In this document: positions 16,450 through 55,835 of the stretch, in pieces
Layout: the number at the start of each line of letters is the position of its first letter
Numbering within the stretch: position 1 is the first letter of the stretch
Virus record (IMG/VR): IMGVR_UViG_3300035703_000108
Location: 1-57,640 of that record
Source of the DNA: a virus
Strand: one strand, 5' to 3'
DNA length: 57,640 nt
The notes under the pieces: model-generated
Seen by the model: only the letters and a program-made list of their open reading frames with translations
Database searches by the model: none
Told to the model about the DNA's origin: nothing
Position numbers and translations under genes: made by a program

Positions 16450-19400
16450 TTAGTTTCCTTCGAGTTGTGCCACGCGGGTGGCAAGAGTGTCGATCTTCTC
16501 GTTGGCCTCTTGGAGAGCCTTAACCAGCACGGGGATCAACGACTGGTATGCCACGTTCAAATGCTTCGGGCCAGCTTGCACCACGCCATCAGCATAGACT
16601 TCCCCGCCCAGAGCCTCTTGGAGTTCCTGCGCGATGAAGCCGGGCTGGATCGACTGATCCTTGGAGTAGTCTTCCTTGTAGCGGAAGGTGACGGGCTTGA
16701 GCGCGTTGACCACGTCGAGGGCTTCGGCCAGTGGCGCGATTTCTTTCTTGAGGCTACGGTCAGACCCGTTGACGTAGGCACCCGCGCCCCACACGCCGGT
16801 GCCGTTAACTTGCAGGTTGAACGCGCCTTGGTCTGCGGTTCCGGCGATATACACTTCGCCCGAAGCGTTTATAACGACGCCGCTAGAACCATCAGCCCAC
16901 GGGGCAATCGTGAGGGTGCCTGCGTTCACTGAACCGCTGGAGAAGATAAAGGCGTTCGTCCCTGCGGCAACGAGGCCGTTGTACGCCCCGGGAGACGAGT
17001 TGGGGATGAAGCGCATCCACGGACCAGTGGAGGACGCGAAGAACGGCCCGTCGATGCTCTGCCCTACGGTGGAGACTTGGAAGATTTGGACCGGCGAACT
17101 CGTCCCGACCCCTACCCGCCCGCCCGCTTCGTTGAGCGTGATGTTGTAGGCCACCGCGCTGTCACTGCGCTGGGCTTGGAGCCACACGCGCCCATCTGCC
17201 GCACTGGTACCGATCCCGAGGCCGTAGCTAGGGTCGTTGTTGCTGAGGAAGGCGGGGTAATTCGTGACGTTGCCAAGCACAGGAGCGTTAACTGCGCCAC
17301 CTGCGGCCACGCGAAGACGAGCAACGGCACTGCTCGTCCCAATCCCGACGTTACCGCTGCTGTCGATGCGCATACGTTCAAGCGGGGCGCCGGAAGAGGT
17401 GAAGAACCGGAGATCAGCCGCGACTACACCTTGCGAGGTAATACCCGCCCAGCGGTTGTCTGCGAGGTCAAGGCCACCTGTGATGAAGCGAAGCGCCGCA
17501 ACCGGAGTGCCGCTACCATTGCGGTTCTGGATGATCGCGCCGGTCGTACCATCGAGGTCTTGGCGCACTTGCAATCGGGCTTCTGGGTTGGTCGATCCGA
17601 CCCCGACGTTACCTGCGTTGGTAATGCGCATCCGCTCGGTCGGCGTCCCATTGTCCACGGTGGAGATAATCCCACCGTGGCCGACACCTTGGTCGATGTA
17701 GCCGATAAAGTCCGCGCCGTAATTTGAGCGCGTTACGCGCACCGCAGTAGAGCTAAAGCCGGACGGTGCGGCAACATCTGCCACTTGAAGCCGCGTTCCG
17801 GGTGCGGATACCCCGATCCCAACATCACCCCCGCTGGTGATGCGCATACGCTCGGTAGTGCCACCAGACCTAAACAGCAGGTTCTGGTTCGCCACCTCAG
17901 ACGCAATCGACGCCAGTCCAGTCCCGACTGTGTCCGAAAACACAACCGAGTTCGTCGAAGACGCCGAGCCGGAGATGTCGATGACCGCGTTCCGGTTGGT
18001 GCTTTCAACCACAAGAATTGTGTTTGACGCCACGGTGCCAGTGTTCGCGTCGTTGAATACGTGAAGGCTGCGACCGAAAGCAGATACGGGTGCGTTCGTC
18101 CCGATCCCGACGTTGCCATCGCTGGCAATCCGCATGCGTTCGACACCAGCGGTTATGTCTTGGAACCGAAGTGGGCCACCATCACCAGAAATGATTTCGT
18201 AGGTTTTGCCCGTAGATGCCGTCTGGTTTTCCAAACGCAAAGTAGGCCCGCTTCCCGTGCCAGCTACGTGAAGGCGGGTAACGGGGTTGTTGGTGCCAAT
18301 CCCAAAGTTGCCCGCACTGGTGACGCGCAACCGCTCACTGCCAGCCGTCGAGAAGGCAATCGCGTCAGAGGATGGCGACCACATCCCTGTGTTGGTGTTG
18401 CTGATGAAGCCGTAGGCGACCGCGCCCACGGTCCCCTTGAGCGTGGCGATGCTGTCCGCAGAGGCAACGCCGAGGGACGGCGTTACGAGGGTCGGGCTGG
18501 TGTTCAACACCACGGAGCCGGTGCCGGTCGATGTGGTGACGCCCGTGCCGCCGTTCGCCACAGCGAGGGTGCCGCCGAGCGTAATCGCACCAGTCGTGGC
18601 CGTGGATGGCGTGAGGCCCGTCGTGCCCGCGCTGAACGAGGTCACGGCGGCCGAGGAGAGCGTGGCCCAAGTCGGGGCCGCGCCGGTGTTGCCCACCAGC
18701 ACCTGACCGGTGGTGCCGACAGCCGTCGCGCTCACAGCCGAGGTGCCGTTGCCCAGCAGCACACCGTTCGCGGTCAGCGTGGTCGCGCCCGTGCCGCCGT
18801 TACCAACGGGGAGCACACCCGATGTGATCTGCGACGCGGAGATGGCGATGGACGTGCTGTTCGCGCTGGTGATCTGACCCTGCGCGTTGACGGCGATGAC
18901 CGGAACCTGCGACGCGCTGCCGTAGGTGCTGGCCGTTACGCCCGTGTTCGTGATGCTGAAGACCGTGCCAGACAGCGTCAGGCCCGTTCCCGCCGTGTAC
19001 AGCACCGGAGCGCCGAACTGCGAGAAGATGATGGGCGTCGTGCCGATGGTGATCGGCAGCGGCGTCTGCTGCACCCACGACGTGTTGGCGAGTATGGCAC
19101 CCGCCGTGACGAGGAAGAAGTCGCCCGCGTCGATCTGGTCAACGCCGGTTCCGGTGCTGTCGAAGTCCGTCGCGCGGGTGAGGATGAAGGGCGTCGAGCC
19201 GTTGCCGGTCTGCGTGACGACATAGACGCCGTGATCCGCCTGCGCCGCGCCGACTTCGTTCTTGATCAGCACGCGGTTGCCCGCGACGACCGCGACGCCG
19301 TCGATGCTCAGCGCGCCGTTCGCGTTCGCCGTGATGGTCGCGCCGACGCCGCCGGTGCCGTTGTTGTACGTGTACGCAGGCAGCGCGGCGACCGTGGCAA

Positions 19401-20895
19401 GACGGACGGCTTGGTGGAAGTTGATGCCCGAGGCGATGCTGTCCGCATACGCCTTGTTGACGATGTCCGTGCCGCTGGTGGGCGCGTTCTGGATCGTGCC
19501 GCTGGTCAGGGCGATCGACGTGATGTCCGTGTTCGCACCCAGCGCCGCCGCGCCCAGTGCCGTGCGCGCCGCGCCCGCCGTGCTGGCGCCCGTGCCGCCG
19601 CTGCCGATCGCGAGCGTGCCGCCCAGCGTCAAGGTGCCTGCGGAGGTGATGGGCGAGCCGCTGAACGTCAACCCCGTCGTGCCGCCCGACGCGGCCACCG
19701 AGGTCACCGTGCCCGCGAACTGGTCGTTCGACGTGATGGTGAAGTTGGGGTACGTGCCGCTGATCGACGTGGTGCCCGCACCGGTCAGGGAGACGATCTG
19801 GTCGGGAGCCGTGTTGTTGATCGTGAAGTTGGGGTAGGTGCCGCTGACACTGATCGCCGTGCCAGCCGTCAGGGAGACGATCTGGTCGGGCGCGGTGTTG
19901 TCGATGGTGATCGAGCCTGCCGCGTTCGTGACGGACACGCCGGTGCCTGCGGTCAGCGCCGCGAGGGTGTACCCAGCGCCGTTGCCGATGAGGAGCTGGC
20001 CGTTCGTCGGCGTGGCGGTCAGACCGGTGCCGCCGTTGTCGGGGGACAACGTGCCTCCGAGCGTCAGCGTGCCGATAGTCGTGACAGGGCCGCCGGTGAA
20101 GGTCATGCCCGTCGTGCCACCAGACGCGTTGACACTGGTCACGGTGCCCGTGCCGGTGAGCGTCGTCCAGAGCGGCTCATCCGTTCCGGTGGAAGTCAAC
20201 ACTTGCCCCGGTATGCCGGGGTTGGTCAGGGCGAACTTGGTGCCAGTCGAATACACGACGGCACCGGCAACGGGAGACAGGGCGTCGCCAGTGCCGCCGC
20301 GACCCAAGGGGAGCGACCCCTGAGTTTCGTTCGTGTCGCTGAGATCCACGGCGGGGTGCACGTGGTCTTCGCGAGCGGCAGCAGTCGAGACGCCCGCCGT
20401 AGCGGTGCCGAGAGCTTGGGGTGTTGCAGTTGCGAGGTTTACGGAAAGCGTGACGTTGTTCGCGAGCGAGCCGCCGCCGGTCAGGCCGGTGCCTGCGATG
20501 ATCAGGCGGCCTTCAGGGACGTAGCCCGTGGCTACGACGGGGCTGGTCGTGACGGACGTTACCCGCCCGTTCGCGTCCACCGTGACAGTCGGGACATTTG
20601 ATCCGTTGCCGTAAACACCAGCCACAACCCCAGTTGTATCAAGCTGACTAGCGCCCACACCGCCATTAGCGATAGCGAACACGCGGTTAGCAGAAAGATC
20701 ACCGCCCCCAACAAGACCAGTTCCCGCAGTGAGAGTGCGGCTTGGCGGCACCTCTCCAGAAGAAGCGACGTTGCTGAACTGAACCTTGTACGTGCTGCCA
20801 TCAAGGACATACGGAAAATACCCCGCTTGGCTGCTACCCGTGTACTCGGGCAGGCCGGTAATCTTGGTCGGGATGAGGTTGGTTGGGACACTCAC
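16450..20895 (-). CDS. Large tail fibre with C-terminal S74 chaperone (1481 aa)
   Basis: The N-terminal 20-150 residues probably attach to the tail (TKITGLPEYTGSSQAGYFPY). Residues 150-850 are repeated LPxGxGGTGA, GTVTSV and GTGLTLSG units. Residues 850-1370 hold repeated ERMRITSGGDVGIG-type units, a triple-helical beta pattern seen in long tail fibres. The last 110 residues are an S74 chaperone domain (SDRSLKKEIAPL, PGFIAQELQEAL, YQSLIPVLVKALQEANEKI). The GTG start overlaps the upstream stop. This is the main candidate for the receptor-binding fibre, with a second S74 fibre downstream. Confidence 0.85.
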   Translation of the reverse strand: MSVPTNLIPTKITGLPEYTGSSQAGYFPYVLDGSTYKVQFSNVASSGEVPPSRTLTAGTGLVGGGDLSANRVFAIANGGVGASQLDTTGVVAGVYGNGSNVPTVTVDANGRVTSVTTSPVVATGYVPEGRLIIAGTGLTGGGSLANNVTLSVNLATATPQALGTATAGVSTAAAREDHVHPAVDLSDTNETQGSLPLGRGGTGDALSPVAGAVVYSTGTKFALTNPGIPGQVLTSTGTDEPLWTTLTGTGTVTSVNASGGTTGMTFTGGPVTTIGTLTLGGTLSPDNGGTGLTATPTNGQLLIGNGAGYTLAALTAGTGVSVTNAAGSITIDNTAPDQIVSLTAGTAISVSGTYPNFTINNTAPDQIVSLTGAGTTSISGTYPNFTITSNDQFAGTVTSVAASGGTTGLTFSGSPITSAGTLTLGGTLAIGSGGTGASTAGAARTALGAAALGANTDITSIALTSGTIQNAPTSGTDIVNKAYADSIASGINFHQAVRLATVAALPAYTYNNGTGGVGATITANANGALSIDGVAVVAGNRVLIKNEVGAAQADHGVYVVTQTGNGSTPFILTRATDFDSTGTGVDQIDAGDFFLVTAGAILANTSWVQQTPLPITIGTTPIIFSQFGAPVLYTAGTGLTLSGTVFSITNTGVTASTYGSASQVPVIAVNAQGQITSANSTSIAISASQITSGVLPVGNGGTGATTLTANGVLLGNGTSAVSATAVGTTGQVLVGNTGAAPTWATLSSAAVTSFSAGTTGLTPSTATTGAITLGGTLAVANGGTGVTTSTGTGSVVLNTSPTLVTPSLGVASADSIATLKGTVGAVAYGFISNTNTGMWSPSSDAIAFSTAGSERLRVTSAGNFGIGTNNPVTRLHVAGTGSGPTLRLENQTASTGKTYEIISGDGGPLRFQDITAGVERMRIASDGNVGIGTNAPVSAFGRSLHVFNDANTGTVASNTILVVESTNRNAVIDISGSASSTNSVVFSDTVGTGLASIASEVANQNLLFRSGGTTERMRITSGGDVGIGVSAPGTRLQVADVAAPSGFSSTAVRVTRSNYGADFIGYIDQGVGHGGIISTVDNGTPTERMRITNAGNVGVGSTNPEARLQVRQDLDGTTGAIIQNRNGSGTPVAALRFITGGLDLADNRWAGITSQGVVAADLRFFTSSGAPLERMRIDSSGNVGIGTSSAVARLRVAAGGAVNAPVLGNVTNYPAFLSNNDPSYGLGIGTSAADGRVWLQAQRSDSAVAYNITLNEAGGRVGVGTSSPVQIFQVSTVGQSIDGPFFASSTGPWMRFIPNSSPGAYNGLVAAGTNAFIFSSGSVNAGTLTIAPWADGSSGVVINASGEVYIAGTADQGAFNLQVNGTGVWGAGAYVNGSDRSLKKEIAPLAEALDVVNALKPVTFRYKEDYSKDQSIQPGFIAQELQEALGGEVYADGVVQAGPKHLNVAYQSLIPVLVKALQEANEKIDTLATRVAQLEGN

Positions 20896-36837: not shown

Positions 36838-37590
36838 ATGCCTACTAAGAACGAAGGAACGCTTCACATCGATGCCCTCAAGCAAGGGCGCATCCGGCTG
36901 CGGCTGATCGGCACCACGCCGATGTACATGAACAACATGAGCATCAAGGCTAAGCGCGATCTGCTGATCGGCGGGGGCCGGAAAACCGCCGCCGAGAAGA
37001 AGGACATCAAGCACGACCCCGAGCGGGAGTTCCGCGACAGCGCGCACAAGCACGAGGTCGGCGAGACGATGCTCTGCTTCCCCGCGCCCGGCGTGAAGTC
37101 GGCGATGGCGACAGCAGCCCTCGAAACACCGGGCGTCACCAAGTCTAGCGTCCAGCGTCTCATCTTCCTGCCGCAGCAGAAGATCAGCGTGTGGGGCAAG
37201 CCCTACCTCAAGATGGACGTGGTGCGCTCTGCGGACATGAACCGCACGCCGGACATCCGCACCCGCTGCTACCTGCCGCGCTGGGTGGCCGAGGTGGACA
37301 TCGCCTTCGTGACGCCAACGCTGTCGGCGCACGCCATCATCAGCCTGCTGTCCAACGCAGGTGTGGTCGTCGGGTTGGGTGACTTCCGGCAGGAGAAGGG
37401 TCGCGGCAGTTACGGCACGTTCGCTGTCGCTGGCGACGATCTGGGCGACTGGCAGGCGTACTGGGACGAGGTCACACAGGAAGGCCGCGCAGTGCAGCAG
37501 GCGGCTCTGGACAACCCTGAGCTGGCTGACGCCGACACGGTCGAGTTGATGGACATCCTCAATGAAGAGCGCGCCCGCAGGGTCGCATGA
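36838..37590 (+). CDS. Conserved phage protein with GLGDFRxxKGRGSYG signature (250 aa)
   Basis: The N-terminal strand set (GRIRLRLIGTTPMYMNNM) and a basic central part are followed by a C-terminal block (NAGVVVGLGDFRQEKGRG, then SYGTFAV). I know a family of phage proteins with this architecture (LIG-x2-P-[ML]-x3, then G-[IV]-G-[DE]-[WF]-R-x2-[KR]-x-G-x-[YF]-G) near recombination or replication genes. No function has been assigned to it that I know of. The acidic C-terminus (ELADADTVELMDIL) is separate. It is followed by the G-rich tract. The RAMP/ferredoxin-like feel is an impression only. Confidence 0.6.
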   Translation: MPTKNEGTLHIDALKQGRIRLRLIGTTPMYMNNMSIKAKRDLLIGGGRKTAAEKKDIKHDPEREFRDSAHKHEVGETMLCFPAPGVKSAMATAALETPGVTKSSVQRLIFLPQQKISVWGKPYLKMDVVRSADMNRTPDIRTRCYLPRWVAEVDIAFVTPTLSAHAIISLLSNAGVVVGLGDFRQEKGRGSYGTFAVAGDDLGDWQAYWDEVTQEGRAVQQAALDNPELADADTVELMDILNEERARRVA

Positions 37591-37599
37591 TGTGTTTGC

Positions 37600-37960
37600 G
37601 GGGCGGGCCACGTGTCCGCCCACGCAACTGGTTTACGGCGGTCTTGGTGAGGTACGGCGCGTCAGGGCGCGGCTGGGTGAGGCGAGGTCGGGCGGTTATG
37701 GCTGGGTGACGCATGTTGGGGCAGGGCGCGGCTAGGTCGGGCGGTCGAGGTAGGGCTTGGTCTGATCGGTTAGGGTTCGGCGGTTCAGGTTCGGCGGTTC
37801 AGGTTCGGATAGGTCGGGTTGGGCTAGGTACGTCCCGGCGCGGCAAGGCGGTTGAGACACGGCAAGGCAAGGTCGGTTGCGATCCGGCATGTCAAGGCTT
37901 GGCGGTTCAGGTTGGGCTGCGTTCGCTTGGGTTTGGCGCGTCTTGGCGGTTAAGTGAAAC
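37600..37960 (+). repeat. G-rich non-coding tract with GG every 3-5 bases
   Basis: The 384-base gap 37591-37974 holds no credible gene. From about 37640 to 37955 the plus strand is G-rich with GG doublets recurring mostly at 5-base steps (GGTAC GGCGC GTCAG GGCGC GGCTG) and only a few CC. Two exact 14-base tandem units GGCGGTTCAGGTTC occupy 37779-37806, with a related copy near 37901. The right end carries the AAAGGAGACAGAG ribosome-binding site of the next gene. Possible roles: replication origin, G-quadruplex/R-loop element, or transcription pausing. Confidence 0.7.
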
Positions 37961-37974
37961 GAAAGGAGACAGAG

Positions 37975-38475
37975 ATGAGTGGATTTCCAAAGAAAGAGCG
38001 GCAACGCATAATTGACGAGTATCTCGCAACCACGGGCCGTAACATGTTCGTGCCCAGCGAGTTCATCGACTGGCTTGGCGATAACCCCAAGCATGAGGCT
38101 TACGACTGGTTCTACGGCATGGCTGATGCCGAAGCGGCGCGCGAGTACCGCATCGCTCTGGCGAGGCGCATGGCGAGCGGCCTGCGGATCGTGGCGCAAG
38201 TGAGCGTGGCACCGGACAGCGCGCAGGTGGTGCAGTTCAGCACCCGCGAGTTCCCAGCCTATGTGTCCCCCGTGTCGGGCCGCAAGGACGGCGGCGGCTA
38301 CTCGCCGTTCAACCCGGACGATCCGGTGCTGATGGACGAGCTGCGCTGCCAAGGCGCGCAGGCTCTGCGGAGCTGGCTCGAACGCTATCGCGGCGCCGCA
38401 GAGGCGGCAGGCATCGACGTCGTGCCGATCGAGCACATCGCCGGGGCCATGCACCGCGAGCGGAGCGCCGCGTGA
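37975..38475 (+). CDS. Early protein of unknown function (166 aa)
   Basis: Start MSGFPKKERQRIIDEYLATT at 37975 after AAAGGAGACAGAG. Helical N-terminus, central AREYRIALARRMASGLRIVA, then a Pro/Gly-rich part with FNPDDPVLMDELRCQGAQAL and a helical end. It may bind DNA (N-terminal basic helix), but no family is recognised. Overlaps the 28-aa gene. Confidence 0.5.
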   Translation: MSGFPKKERQRIIDEYLATTGRNMFVPSEFIDWLGDNPKHEAYDWFYGMADAEAAREYRIALARRMASGLRIVAQVSVAPDSAQVVQFSTREFPAYVSPVSGRKDGGGYSPFNPDDPVLMDELRCQGAQALRSWLERYRGAAEAAGIDVVPIEHIAGAMHRERSAA

Positions 38476-38603: not shown

Positions 38604-39020
38604 ATGCGTAAGAGATATGAGACAGATGAAGACCGCCAGAACGAGCGTGATGTAGCCACCGCGATTGCGCAGCACTACCACCTCACACCCATCAAGCTCC
38701 CCGACCACAGCCGGGCCGATTTCATCATGCACCGCGACGGCGTCGCGCAGTCTGTGATCGAGATCAAGTGCCGCAACGTCTCGTCAGCCAAGTACGAGAC
38801 CCTCATGCTCAGCAAGAGCAAGTACTACGCCCTGCTCGACTGGGCGGAAAGGGGCTTCAAGGCCGCCCTCGTCGTGCGTTGGACGGACGCGATCGGCATC
38901 TGCCCCGTGCCCGTGGAGCACAGCCTCGGCACAGGCGGACGCACAGACCGTGGTGATGCCCTCGACATCGAGAGCGTCGTCCACATCCCCATTGACCGCT
39001 TCAAGCTCATCCCCCGGTAG
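38604..39020 (+). CDS. PD-(D/E)XK-type nuclease-like protein (138 aa)
   Basis: The segment DHSRADFIMHRDGVAQSVIE followed by IKCRN (about 36-60) has the D-x(10-15)-[E]-x-K pattern of restriction-like endonucleases, with a helix before it (NERDVATAIAQHYHLTPIKL) and a helix after it (YYALLDWAERGFKAALVVRW). A DNA-processing nuclease (resolvase- or recombination-related) is likely. Its RBS lies in a strong hairpin, so expression appears controlled. Its 3' end overlaps the minus-strand gene by 14 bases. Confidence 0.65.
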   Translation: MRKRYETDEDRQNERDVATAIAQHYHLTPIKLPDHSRADFIMHRDGVAQSVIEIKCRNVSSAKYETLMLSKSKYYALLDWAERGFKAALVVRWTDAIGICPVPVEHSLGTGGRTDRGDALDIESVVHIPIDRFKLIPR

Positions 39021-39751: not shown

Positions 39752-40066
39752 ATGATTATCGAATGGCACAAGGAACCGCGCAGCCGCCGCCTTCTGGCCC
39801 GGCTCAACAAGAACAACGTCGAGCTGGTCAAGCGCGTCTTCTTCCCCGCCGACTTCCATGAGTACGTTGGCGTTGACCGCGACACGCGCCGCGTCATGGC
39901 GCTGCTGGAGAACCGCCGCGAGCGCGCCATTGACCGCGCCGTTGACAGCGCCTTTGGCCTCACGTTCTTGGAGGCAGCCGCCGACGGCTCGCGCAGCGCC
40001 GAGTTGATGGCTATCCTCAACGCCGCACCGGATGTCAGCGCCGTGGTCGGGGAGGCACTGCGGTGA
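39752..40066 (+). CDS. Early helical protein (104 aa)
   Basis: Start MIIEWHKEPRSRRLLARLNK after ACAGGAGTTACCA. Basic N-terminal half, then an Ala/Leu-rich helical C-terminus with AFGLTFLEAAADGSRSAELM. No family recognised. It overlaps the next gene by GTGA and begins the run of coupled small genes. Confidence 0.5.
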   Translation: MIIEWHKEPRSRRLLARLNKNNVELVKRVFFPADFHEYVGVDRDTRRVMALLENRRERAIDRAVDSAFGLTFLEAAADGSRSAELMAILNAAPDVSAVVGEALR

Positions 40067-40197
40067 TCCACGAAGCCAACATCATCGCCGCGTGGCGCAT
40101 CATCGACCAGCTCCGCTTCACGCCCGAGCACGAGATCCGCGCCATGCGCGTCGCCCTCTGCGAGATGCGCGACAACCTCGATCTGATCCTCGCATGA
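40063..40197 (+). CDS. Small early protein (44 aa)
   Basis: GTG start overlapping the upstream TGA. Reads VIHEANIIAAWRIIDQLRFT, then RAMRVALCEMRDNLDLILA. Helical, one Cys, no known domain. It ends as ATGA at the start of the DnaA-like gene. Confidence 0.5.
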   Translation: MIHEANIIAAWRIIDQLRFTPEHEIRAMRVALCEMRDNLDLILA

Positions 40198-40493
40198 AGA
40201 CCGAGATCATCCTAGCCTGCGCGCGCCTGTTCAACGTGCCCACCGCTCGCCTCAAGGGCTATGCCCGCTGCGATGGCGCCAAGGAGGCGCGCTTCGCCCT
40301 CTACCGGGCGCTGCACTCGCGGGGCAACTCGTACTCGGCGATCGGCGTCATGCTCGACCGCGACCACTCAACGATCCTGCACGGCGTGCGTGAGGCGGAC
40401 GCGATGATGGCAGCGTGCCCTGAGTATGCAGCCAAGGTGGCCGAGCTGACCGCATGGCGCCCGGCGTACTTCAATCAGAAAGACCCGACATGA
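40194..40493 (+). CDS. Stand-alone DnaA domain IV-like DNA-binding protein (99 aa)
   Basis: After an N-terminal helix (KTEIILACARLFNVPTARLK) the protein has KEARFALYRALHSRGNSYSA and IGVMLDRDHSTILHGVREAD. The D-R-D-H-S-T-[IV]-L-H block is the signature of the DnaA C-terminal (domain IV) helix-turn-helix that reads DnaA boxes. No ATPase domain is present. It could bind the host or phage origin, compete with DnaA, or recruit the primase-helicase. It lies in the early block ahead of the replication core. Confidence 0.7.
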   Translation: MKTEIILACARLFNVPTARLKGYARCDGAKEARFALYRALHSRGNSYSAIGVMLDRDHSTILHGVREADAMMAACPEYAAKVAELTAWRPAYFNQKDPT

Positions 40494-54476: not shown

Positions 54477-55835
54477 GTGACCTTCAAACCCCACGACTAC
54501 CAGCAAGAGGCGATGGCGCACCTGTACAAGGTGCGCCGGAGCGCTCTGTGGATGCCCATGGGCGGCGGGAAGACCGTCACCACCCTGACCGCGCTGGACA
54601 ACCTGAACGTGGTCGAGGATGTCTTCCCCGCGCTCGTGCTGGCGCCGCTGCGCGTCGCGCGGGCAACGTGGCCGGAGGAAGTCGCCAAGTGGCCGCACCT
54701 CAAGCACCTGCGCGTCAGTGTCATCAGCGGCACGCCCAAGCAGCGTGAGCGCGCGCTTGCCAAGGATGCGGACATCTACTGCACGAACTACGACAACCTC
54801 GTCTGGCTGCGCAAGGAGCTGGGCGACACGTGGCCCTTCAAGACGGTCGTGGCCGACGAGTTCACGCGCCTCAAGTCCTTCCGCCTGCGGCAAGGCGGCA
54901 GCCGCGCGCGGGCGCTGGGTCAGGTGGCGCACAGCCACGTCAGCCGGTTCATCGGTCTGACCGGCACCCCTGCGCCCAACGGCGTGAAGGATCTCTGGGG
55001 TCAAATTTGGATGCTCGATCAAGGCGAGCGGCTGGGCCGCACGTTCAGCGCCTTTGAGCAGCGGTGGTTCCGCAAGGGGTACGACGGGTACAGCCTCGTG
55101 CCCTACGACCACACGCAGGCTGAGGTCGAGGACAAGCTGCGCGACATCTGCCTCACGGTTAAGGGGCTGGATGTGGACGAGCCGATCGTCAACCCGATCT
55201 ACGTTGATCTGCCGCCCATGGCGCGCAAGGTGTACGACGCGATGGAGGTTGAGATGTTCGCCGTCCTGAACGACGAGGGTGTCGAGGCGGCCAACGCGGC
55301 GGTGCGCACCCAGAAGTGCTTGCAACTCGCCAACGGCGCGCTGTACATCGACGAGAACGGCAACTGGGAGGAAGCACATGCCGCAAAGCTCGACGCCCTC
55401 GAAAGCATCATCGAAGAGGCGAACGGCGCGGCGGTTCTCGTTGCCTACAATTTCAAGCACGATCTTCAGCGGCTACAATCTCGTTTCCGTCAAGGTCGGG
55501 TGCTGGACGCTGACCCTGACACGATCAAGCAGTGGAACGCAGGAAAAATTCCGCTGCTATTCGCTCACCCTGCATCGGCGGGACACGGACTGAACCTCGC
55601 CGACGGGGGCAACATTCTCGCCTTCTTCGGCGTCAACTGGTCGCTTGAAGAGCACATGCAGATCATCGAGCGCATCGGCCCGATGCGCCAGAAGCAGGCG
55701 GGCTATGACCGACCGGTCTTCGTCTACCCGATCCTCGCGCGGGGCACCGTGGACGATCTGGTCATGGAGCGTCTGTCGAGCAAGCGCAGCGTCCAAGAGG
55801 TGCTGCTGGAAGCGATGAAGCGGAGGAAGAAATGA
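54477..55835 (+). CDS. SNF2-type DEAD/DEAH-like helicase (452 aa)
   Basis: GTG start after AGGGAGTGGTGACCGC. Motif I MPMGGGKTVTTLTAL (Walker A); Ia ALVLAPLRVARATWPEEVA; II VVADEFTRLKS (DE-x-[TS]); III LTGTPAPNGVKDLWGQIWML; IV-VI VLVAYNFKHDLQRLQ, then the QIIERIGPMRQK arginine motif. This is the short SNF2-family helicase common in phage replication operons next to VRR-NUC. It ends five bases before the converging 501-aa gene. Confidence 0.9.
   Translation: MTFKPHDYQQEAMAHLYKVRRSALWMPMGGGKTVTTLTALDNLNVVEDVFPALVLAPLRVARATWPEEVAKWPHLKHLRVSVISGTPKQRERALAKDADIYCTNYDNLVWLRKELGDTWPFKTVVADEFTRLKSFRLRQGGSRARALGQVAHSHVSRFIGLTGTPAPNGVKDLWGQIWMLDQGERLGRTFSAFEQRWFRKGYDGYSLVPYDHTQAEVEDKLRDICLTVKGLDVDEPIVNPIYVDLPPMARKVYDAMEVEMFAVLNDEGVEAANAAVRTQKCLQLANGALYIDENGNWEEAHAAKLDALESIIEEANGAAVLVAYNFKHDLQRLQSRFRQGRVLDADPDTIKQWNAGKIPLLFAHPASAGHGLNLADGGNILAFFGVNWSLEEHMQIIERIGPMRQKQAGYDRPVFVYPILARGTVDDLVMERLSSKRSVQEVLLEAMKRRKK

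Follow-up and report, generated by a model that had tools for sequence, protein, structure and literature searches.

The window analyzed here, the whole 57,640-nucleotide stretch of IMG/VR virus record IMGVR_UViG_3300035703_000108, carries on its plus strand a gene, called vipr below (36838..37590), for a 250-amino-acid protein, with a repeat array directly downstream and then a second plus-strand gene (37975..38475). No DNA similarity to named phages was found for the window. A leader hairpin (about 37598..37625, plus strand) lies directly past the vipr stop codon; it is variable in sequence with pairing kept in relatives, and its consensus fold across 15 diverse loci comprised 9 pairs, 4 of them with compensatory changes. 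The array proper (37640-37947) is built of NNGGY pentamers, in which GG is constant and NN variable, and its 3' end falls just ahead of the ribosome-binding site that serves the second gene, whose ATG is at 37975.

Each block of the array consists of GGTY plus NNGGY pentamers and closes in GGC ahead of the next GGTY, the blocks being separated by the punctuation GGCGGTY; the first of them opens with GGTC TTGGT GAGGT ACGGC GCGTC AGGGC. Seven blocks, all on the plus strand, were recognized in the window, one of them truncated. Block B1 (37640..37693) contains GGTC and 10 NNGGY units (TT GA AC GC AG GC TG GA GA CG), and block B2 (37694..37742) contains 9 units (AT TG GA AT GG AG GC TA CG). Block B3 (37743..37781), with 7 units (GA AG TT CT CG AG TC), is identical in the related locus L001. 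Block B4 (37782..37795) is the truncated one: its 2 units duplicate, in tandem, the first 14 nt of B5 (37796..37849), which has 10 units (CA TC TA CG TG TA AC CC GC AA). Block B6 (37850..37903; 10 units: GA AC AA AA CG GC CC AT AA TT) has the same NN code in L001, and block B7 (37904..37947) closes the array with 8 units (CA TG TG TC TG TT GC TT).

The original prediction had described this tract as dense in GG and poor in CC on the plus strand, and both the description and its placement proved correct: 37621-37955 contains 55 runs of at least two G and 69 GG against 3 CC, the largest excess of GG over CC in the whole window. The 14-base tandem repeat it had pointed out is also present (37774-37808, 2.5 copies, 100% identity). 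The predicted 5-base GG period was significant against shuffled controls; the autocorrelation of G in the tract showed maxima at lags 5, 10, 14-15, 19-20, 24-25, and 29 (z 3.5-5.6); not one of 1000 dinucleotide-preserving shuffles matched them, and G-runs were spaced much more regularly than in the shuffles. Lags such as 14, 19, 24, and 29 arise because every GGCGGTY shifts the register by one base. A switch of skew at the tract, which had been named as a further support, was absent: the cumulative skew of the window showed just a local step here and no global switch. Rfam covariance models gave no match up to an E-value of 1 between 36500 and 38700.

The 250-amino-acid vipr protein matches phrog_4652, and a Pfam scan of both array neighbors (36838-37590 and 37975-38475) returned nothing useful. 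An AlphaFold2 model of the vipr protein built with 47 homologues (pLDDT 78, pTM 0.77) was compared with the PDB, and the top matches were all Cas7-family RAMPs, namely Csm3 (type III-A), Cas7 (type VII), and gRAMP/Cas7-11 (best E 3.6e-5, probability 1.0, TM about 0.3-0.5). The protein is therefore predicted to adopt a Cas7/Csm3 fold, and it contains a glycine-rich loop, GLGDFRQEKGRGSYGTF, which is invariant in the family alignments. When a diverse profile (A3) of 16 homologues, drawn in part from Methylobacterium, Aureimonas, and other bacterial contigs, was searched against the PDB, the sole match was 36pp_D, the "SUSP1 Vipr protein" (E 5e-4), across the glycine-rich loop; the alignment is collinear (143-192 to 136-185), short and marginal, covering about 50 residues only. 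PDB matches to EpiD, obtained with an earlier profile, were gone with the more diverse one, and EpiD was dropped as a relative. No Cas families were detected among the ten neighboring and replication proteins scanned.

VIPR (Viral Interference Programmable Repeat) systems are described in a 2026 preprint (PMC13142463), in which Vipr is a phage RAMP that works with vrRNAs made of YNNGG repeats, with GGY constant, encoded next to its gene. According to this source, the NN dinucleotides pair with DNA, every unit skipping one base that in most cases is the codon wobble base, and genes of competing phages are repressed. Because the neighboring protein has a predicted Csm3/Cas7-like fold and its profile finds SUSP1 Vipr as the sole PDB match, we assign the locus to VIPR, and the tract is almost certainly a guide RNA (vrRNA) array of such a system. 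This assignment replaces the functions proposed in the original prediction (an origin, an array of R-loops or G-quadruplexes, a pausing signal, or a hot spot of recombination). The original prediction had known of no described function for such tracts; one is described, though only in that 2026 preprint.

Relatives of the 250-amino-acid vipr protein are encoded by 365 IMG/VR stretches or loci, of which 80 were kept for comparison. Tracts of this kind in other phages, of which the original prediction had an impression, were indeed found next to the vipr relatives, mostly straight after the vipr gene, with a further one past the next gene in about half of the 80 loci; the 5-base period together with this conservation supports its view of a functional non-coding element rather than drift. 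In four loci (L036, L040, L041, and L046), vipr directly adjoins the next gene, with the tract found only beyond the latter. A second array past the counterpart of 37975-38475 was noted in L009, L020, L030, L034, L041, and others, and the window has one array only. The gene at 37975-38475 adjoins vipr or the array in 74 of the 80 relatives; its 166-amino-acid, mostly helical product showed no Pfam family and no PDB fold match, and from its position we regard it as a candidate for the accessory gene vap.

Cutting the arrays of the 80 related loci at GGCGGTY yielded 391 distinct blocks, whose length followed 5n+4 in 341 cases (87%; chance 20%). Across these blocks, the first G of the unit was 90-100% constant and the second about 50-97% constant (usually 70-90%), being otherwise mostly T, and the last base was C or T. 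The NN columns carried near 0-0.1 bit, apart from a slight purine/A bias at block edges. When L001 was compared with the window, vipr was 98.7% and the next gene 97.4% identical, and some blocks were common while others had been replaced whole. Since whole blocks were replaced between near-identical genes, the guides turn over faster than the genes.

To examine the 1-nt skip code, the NN series of each block was searched against locus DNA, leaving out 0, 1, or 2 bases per unit. For 319 blocks and 1.35 Mb, searched on both strands, perfect matches numbered 0, 17, and 0 for skips of 0, 1, and 2. Below a length-dependent mismatch limit there were 76 matches, distributed over 14 guides, whereas 10 shuffles of NN order produced 2-15 matches over 2-9 guides. 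After the set had been enlarged by 143 loci, fetched via primase-helicase and terminase genes, to 5.5 Mb in total, the counts for skips of 0, 1, and 2 were 0, 19, and 0 perfect matches and 5, 58, and 5 with one mismatch; these target matches come from related loci, recur, and are not independent, the independent evidence being mainly that of four guides. The L010 guide (6817) has a 16/16 match within vipr genes carried by other phages, among them that of the window (37411..37434, plus strand), where the skip falls at codon wobble. The L047 guide matched a gene upstream of vipr at 16/16, the L055 guide a downstream gene at 21/22, and the L059 guide the primase-helicase motif VVHHAGKD at 17/18. 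Among the pairs checked, the skip fell on codon position three, and the match extended over exactly one block with a sharp stop at the block edges. In this clade, one guide corresponds to one punctuated block, and the guides of sibling phages are directed against one another's vipr and replication genes; natural sequences give independent support to the noncontiguous guide code.

A phage's own copy of the target can differ from its guide: at the site of the L010 guide, L010's own vipr has the serine codon AGC, which produces two mismatches (14/16). Self-avoidance would be expected to leave such a pattern, though a single case proves nothing. Variants of one guide (AT-GC-TC-TG-C[TG]-AA-TC-TG-..) recurred with small changes in about eight loci (L055 1086, L058 7093, L066 4753, L059 2283, L065 3032, L076 4989, L078 6940, and L079 1688). 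By our own reading of its reverse complement (minus strand), this guide may correspond to an SF2-helicase-like HD(L/Y)RQEAM motif, and a near-match of 17/22 was observed at 54514 of the window.

The window's own guides were searched likewise. IMG/VR was scanned for exact matches to 8 NN from B1, B2, B5, and B6, which gave 5-21 matches per block, with the left-out NNs at chance level. Against 296 genomes of the family of Pararhodobacter marinus, a species that carries an element of this clade (L084), B6 had no match within two mismatches, and B1 had one perfect 20/20 skip-1 match, about 0.002 being expected by chance by our own estimate. The site (L281 1502-1530; G129:C6:104415-104443) is chromosomal in a genome of the family Rhodobacteraceae and intergenic, with a GntR-like regulator on one side and an ABC transporter gene on the other. 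As it lies in no recognizable prophage, its skip is off wobble, and B1 matches at two mismatches in the 296 genomes showed no excess over a reversed-pattern control, this site is unproven as a target and is not claimed as one. For the window's phage, we infer mechanism and type of target from the clade and from the preprint PMC13142463.

Two other explanations of the tract were weighed. If its transcribed G-rich non-template strand formed an R-loop that primes replication, or if it were otherwise an origin or G-quadruplex element, the strong G/C strand asymmetry and the position upstream of replication genes would be accounted for, but such an element has no need of random NN beside fixed GGY, of one-base slips at a fixed motif, or of an array number that varies between phages; with the skew switch missing and the NN content decoding to phage genes, we consider it exceedingly improbable.

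The period itself would suit another kind of reader. TRAP geometry is a triplet plus a 2-nt spacer, hence a period of 5, and the tract could be a platform for a TRAP-like RNA-binding ring or filament that reads GGY only and serves operon attenuation or autoregulation without a guide function; constant GGY, variable NN, and the hairpin leader all agree with this. The NN positions would then be free of information, yet they decode to targets at a skip of 1 and not of 0 or 2, and the neighboring protein has a predicted RAMP fold, not a TRAP fold, which leaves this platform very unlikely.

In the guide array reading, the array would be transcribed in the same direction as vipr, and one guide would be the stretch between two GGCGGTY marks, with 7-12 pentamers. 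Vipr is expected to oligomerize along this RNA, gripping the constant GGY of every unit, while the two variable NN bases of each unit would pair with target DNA read as NN-x-NN-x, the skipped base usually being the codon wobble base. Such guide-directed DNA binding would repress transcription of competing phages' genes. For transcription, ribonucleoprotein assembly, DNA binding, and repression at this locus, we infer each step from the preprint PMC13142463.

Characterized type II VIPR systems (Escherichia phage SUSP1 and a Pseudomonas fulva prophage; PMC13142463) resemble the window in having a single phage RAMP and a small gene nearby, which is an accessory gene in those systems and a candidate for one here. 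Features shared with the window's clade are YNNGG repeats in which GGY is constant and NN hypervariable, the 1-nt skip code with wobble skip, and targets that lie in competing phages and extend to their VIPR systems. In the window's clade, in contrast, the guides abut with only GGCGGTY and a one-base register slip between them, blocks have 7-12 units compared with the 9-16 repeats per vrRNA given in the preprint, and the array lies between vipr and the next gene, often again after the latter, unlike in type II VIPR. The structured, invariable 3' tail reported there for the SUSP1 clade does not occur between the window's blocks, which have only the 5' leader hairpin; because array architecture is stated there to differ between VIPR types, the missing tail speaks on type and not on membership. 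The source also mentions "staggered arrays with overlapping vrRNAs" (fig. S18), which may be the layout seen here.

CRISPR class 1 systems (type III Csm, type VII) likewise combine a Cas7/Csm3-like RAMP subunit with an array of variable units. However, no Cas1/Cas2, Cas10, or palindromic repeats were recognized at the locus, punctuation consists of the 7-nt GGCGGTY only, and the period is 5 nt of RNA with 2 paired bases per unit, compared with 6 nt and 5 paired in CRISPR class 1.

We tentatively propose, as a possibility rather than a probability, a compact VIPR layout in which guides abut, GGCGGTY is both end and start signal, and whole blocks pass from phage to phage at a higher rate than the flanking genes change, that is, by active or recombination-driven turnover; most of the guides would be directed against sibling phages, at their vipr and replication genes. 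Two features may be additional to published VIPR: the compact, tail-less, punctuated layout, in which each block is one guide, and the turnover of guides block by block. With its 365 IMG/VR loci, the family is large and readable, and it extends a system that only one preprint, of 2026, has described; in phage genome annotation such tracts would otherwise be left as unexplained G-rich gaps.

Shortly downstream of the VIPR locus, 38604-39020 encodes a phage PDDEXK_14 endonuclease (Pfam E 2.5e-30). The small protein encoded at 40032-40493 has a weak match to the DnaA C-terminal helix-turn-helix (E 3e-7, slightly below the curated cut-off) and is possibly an origin-binding protein. Elsewhere in the window, an 84-base repeat in two tandem copies (19734-19910) was observed within a long minus-strand open reading frame (16450-20895).
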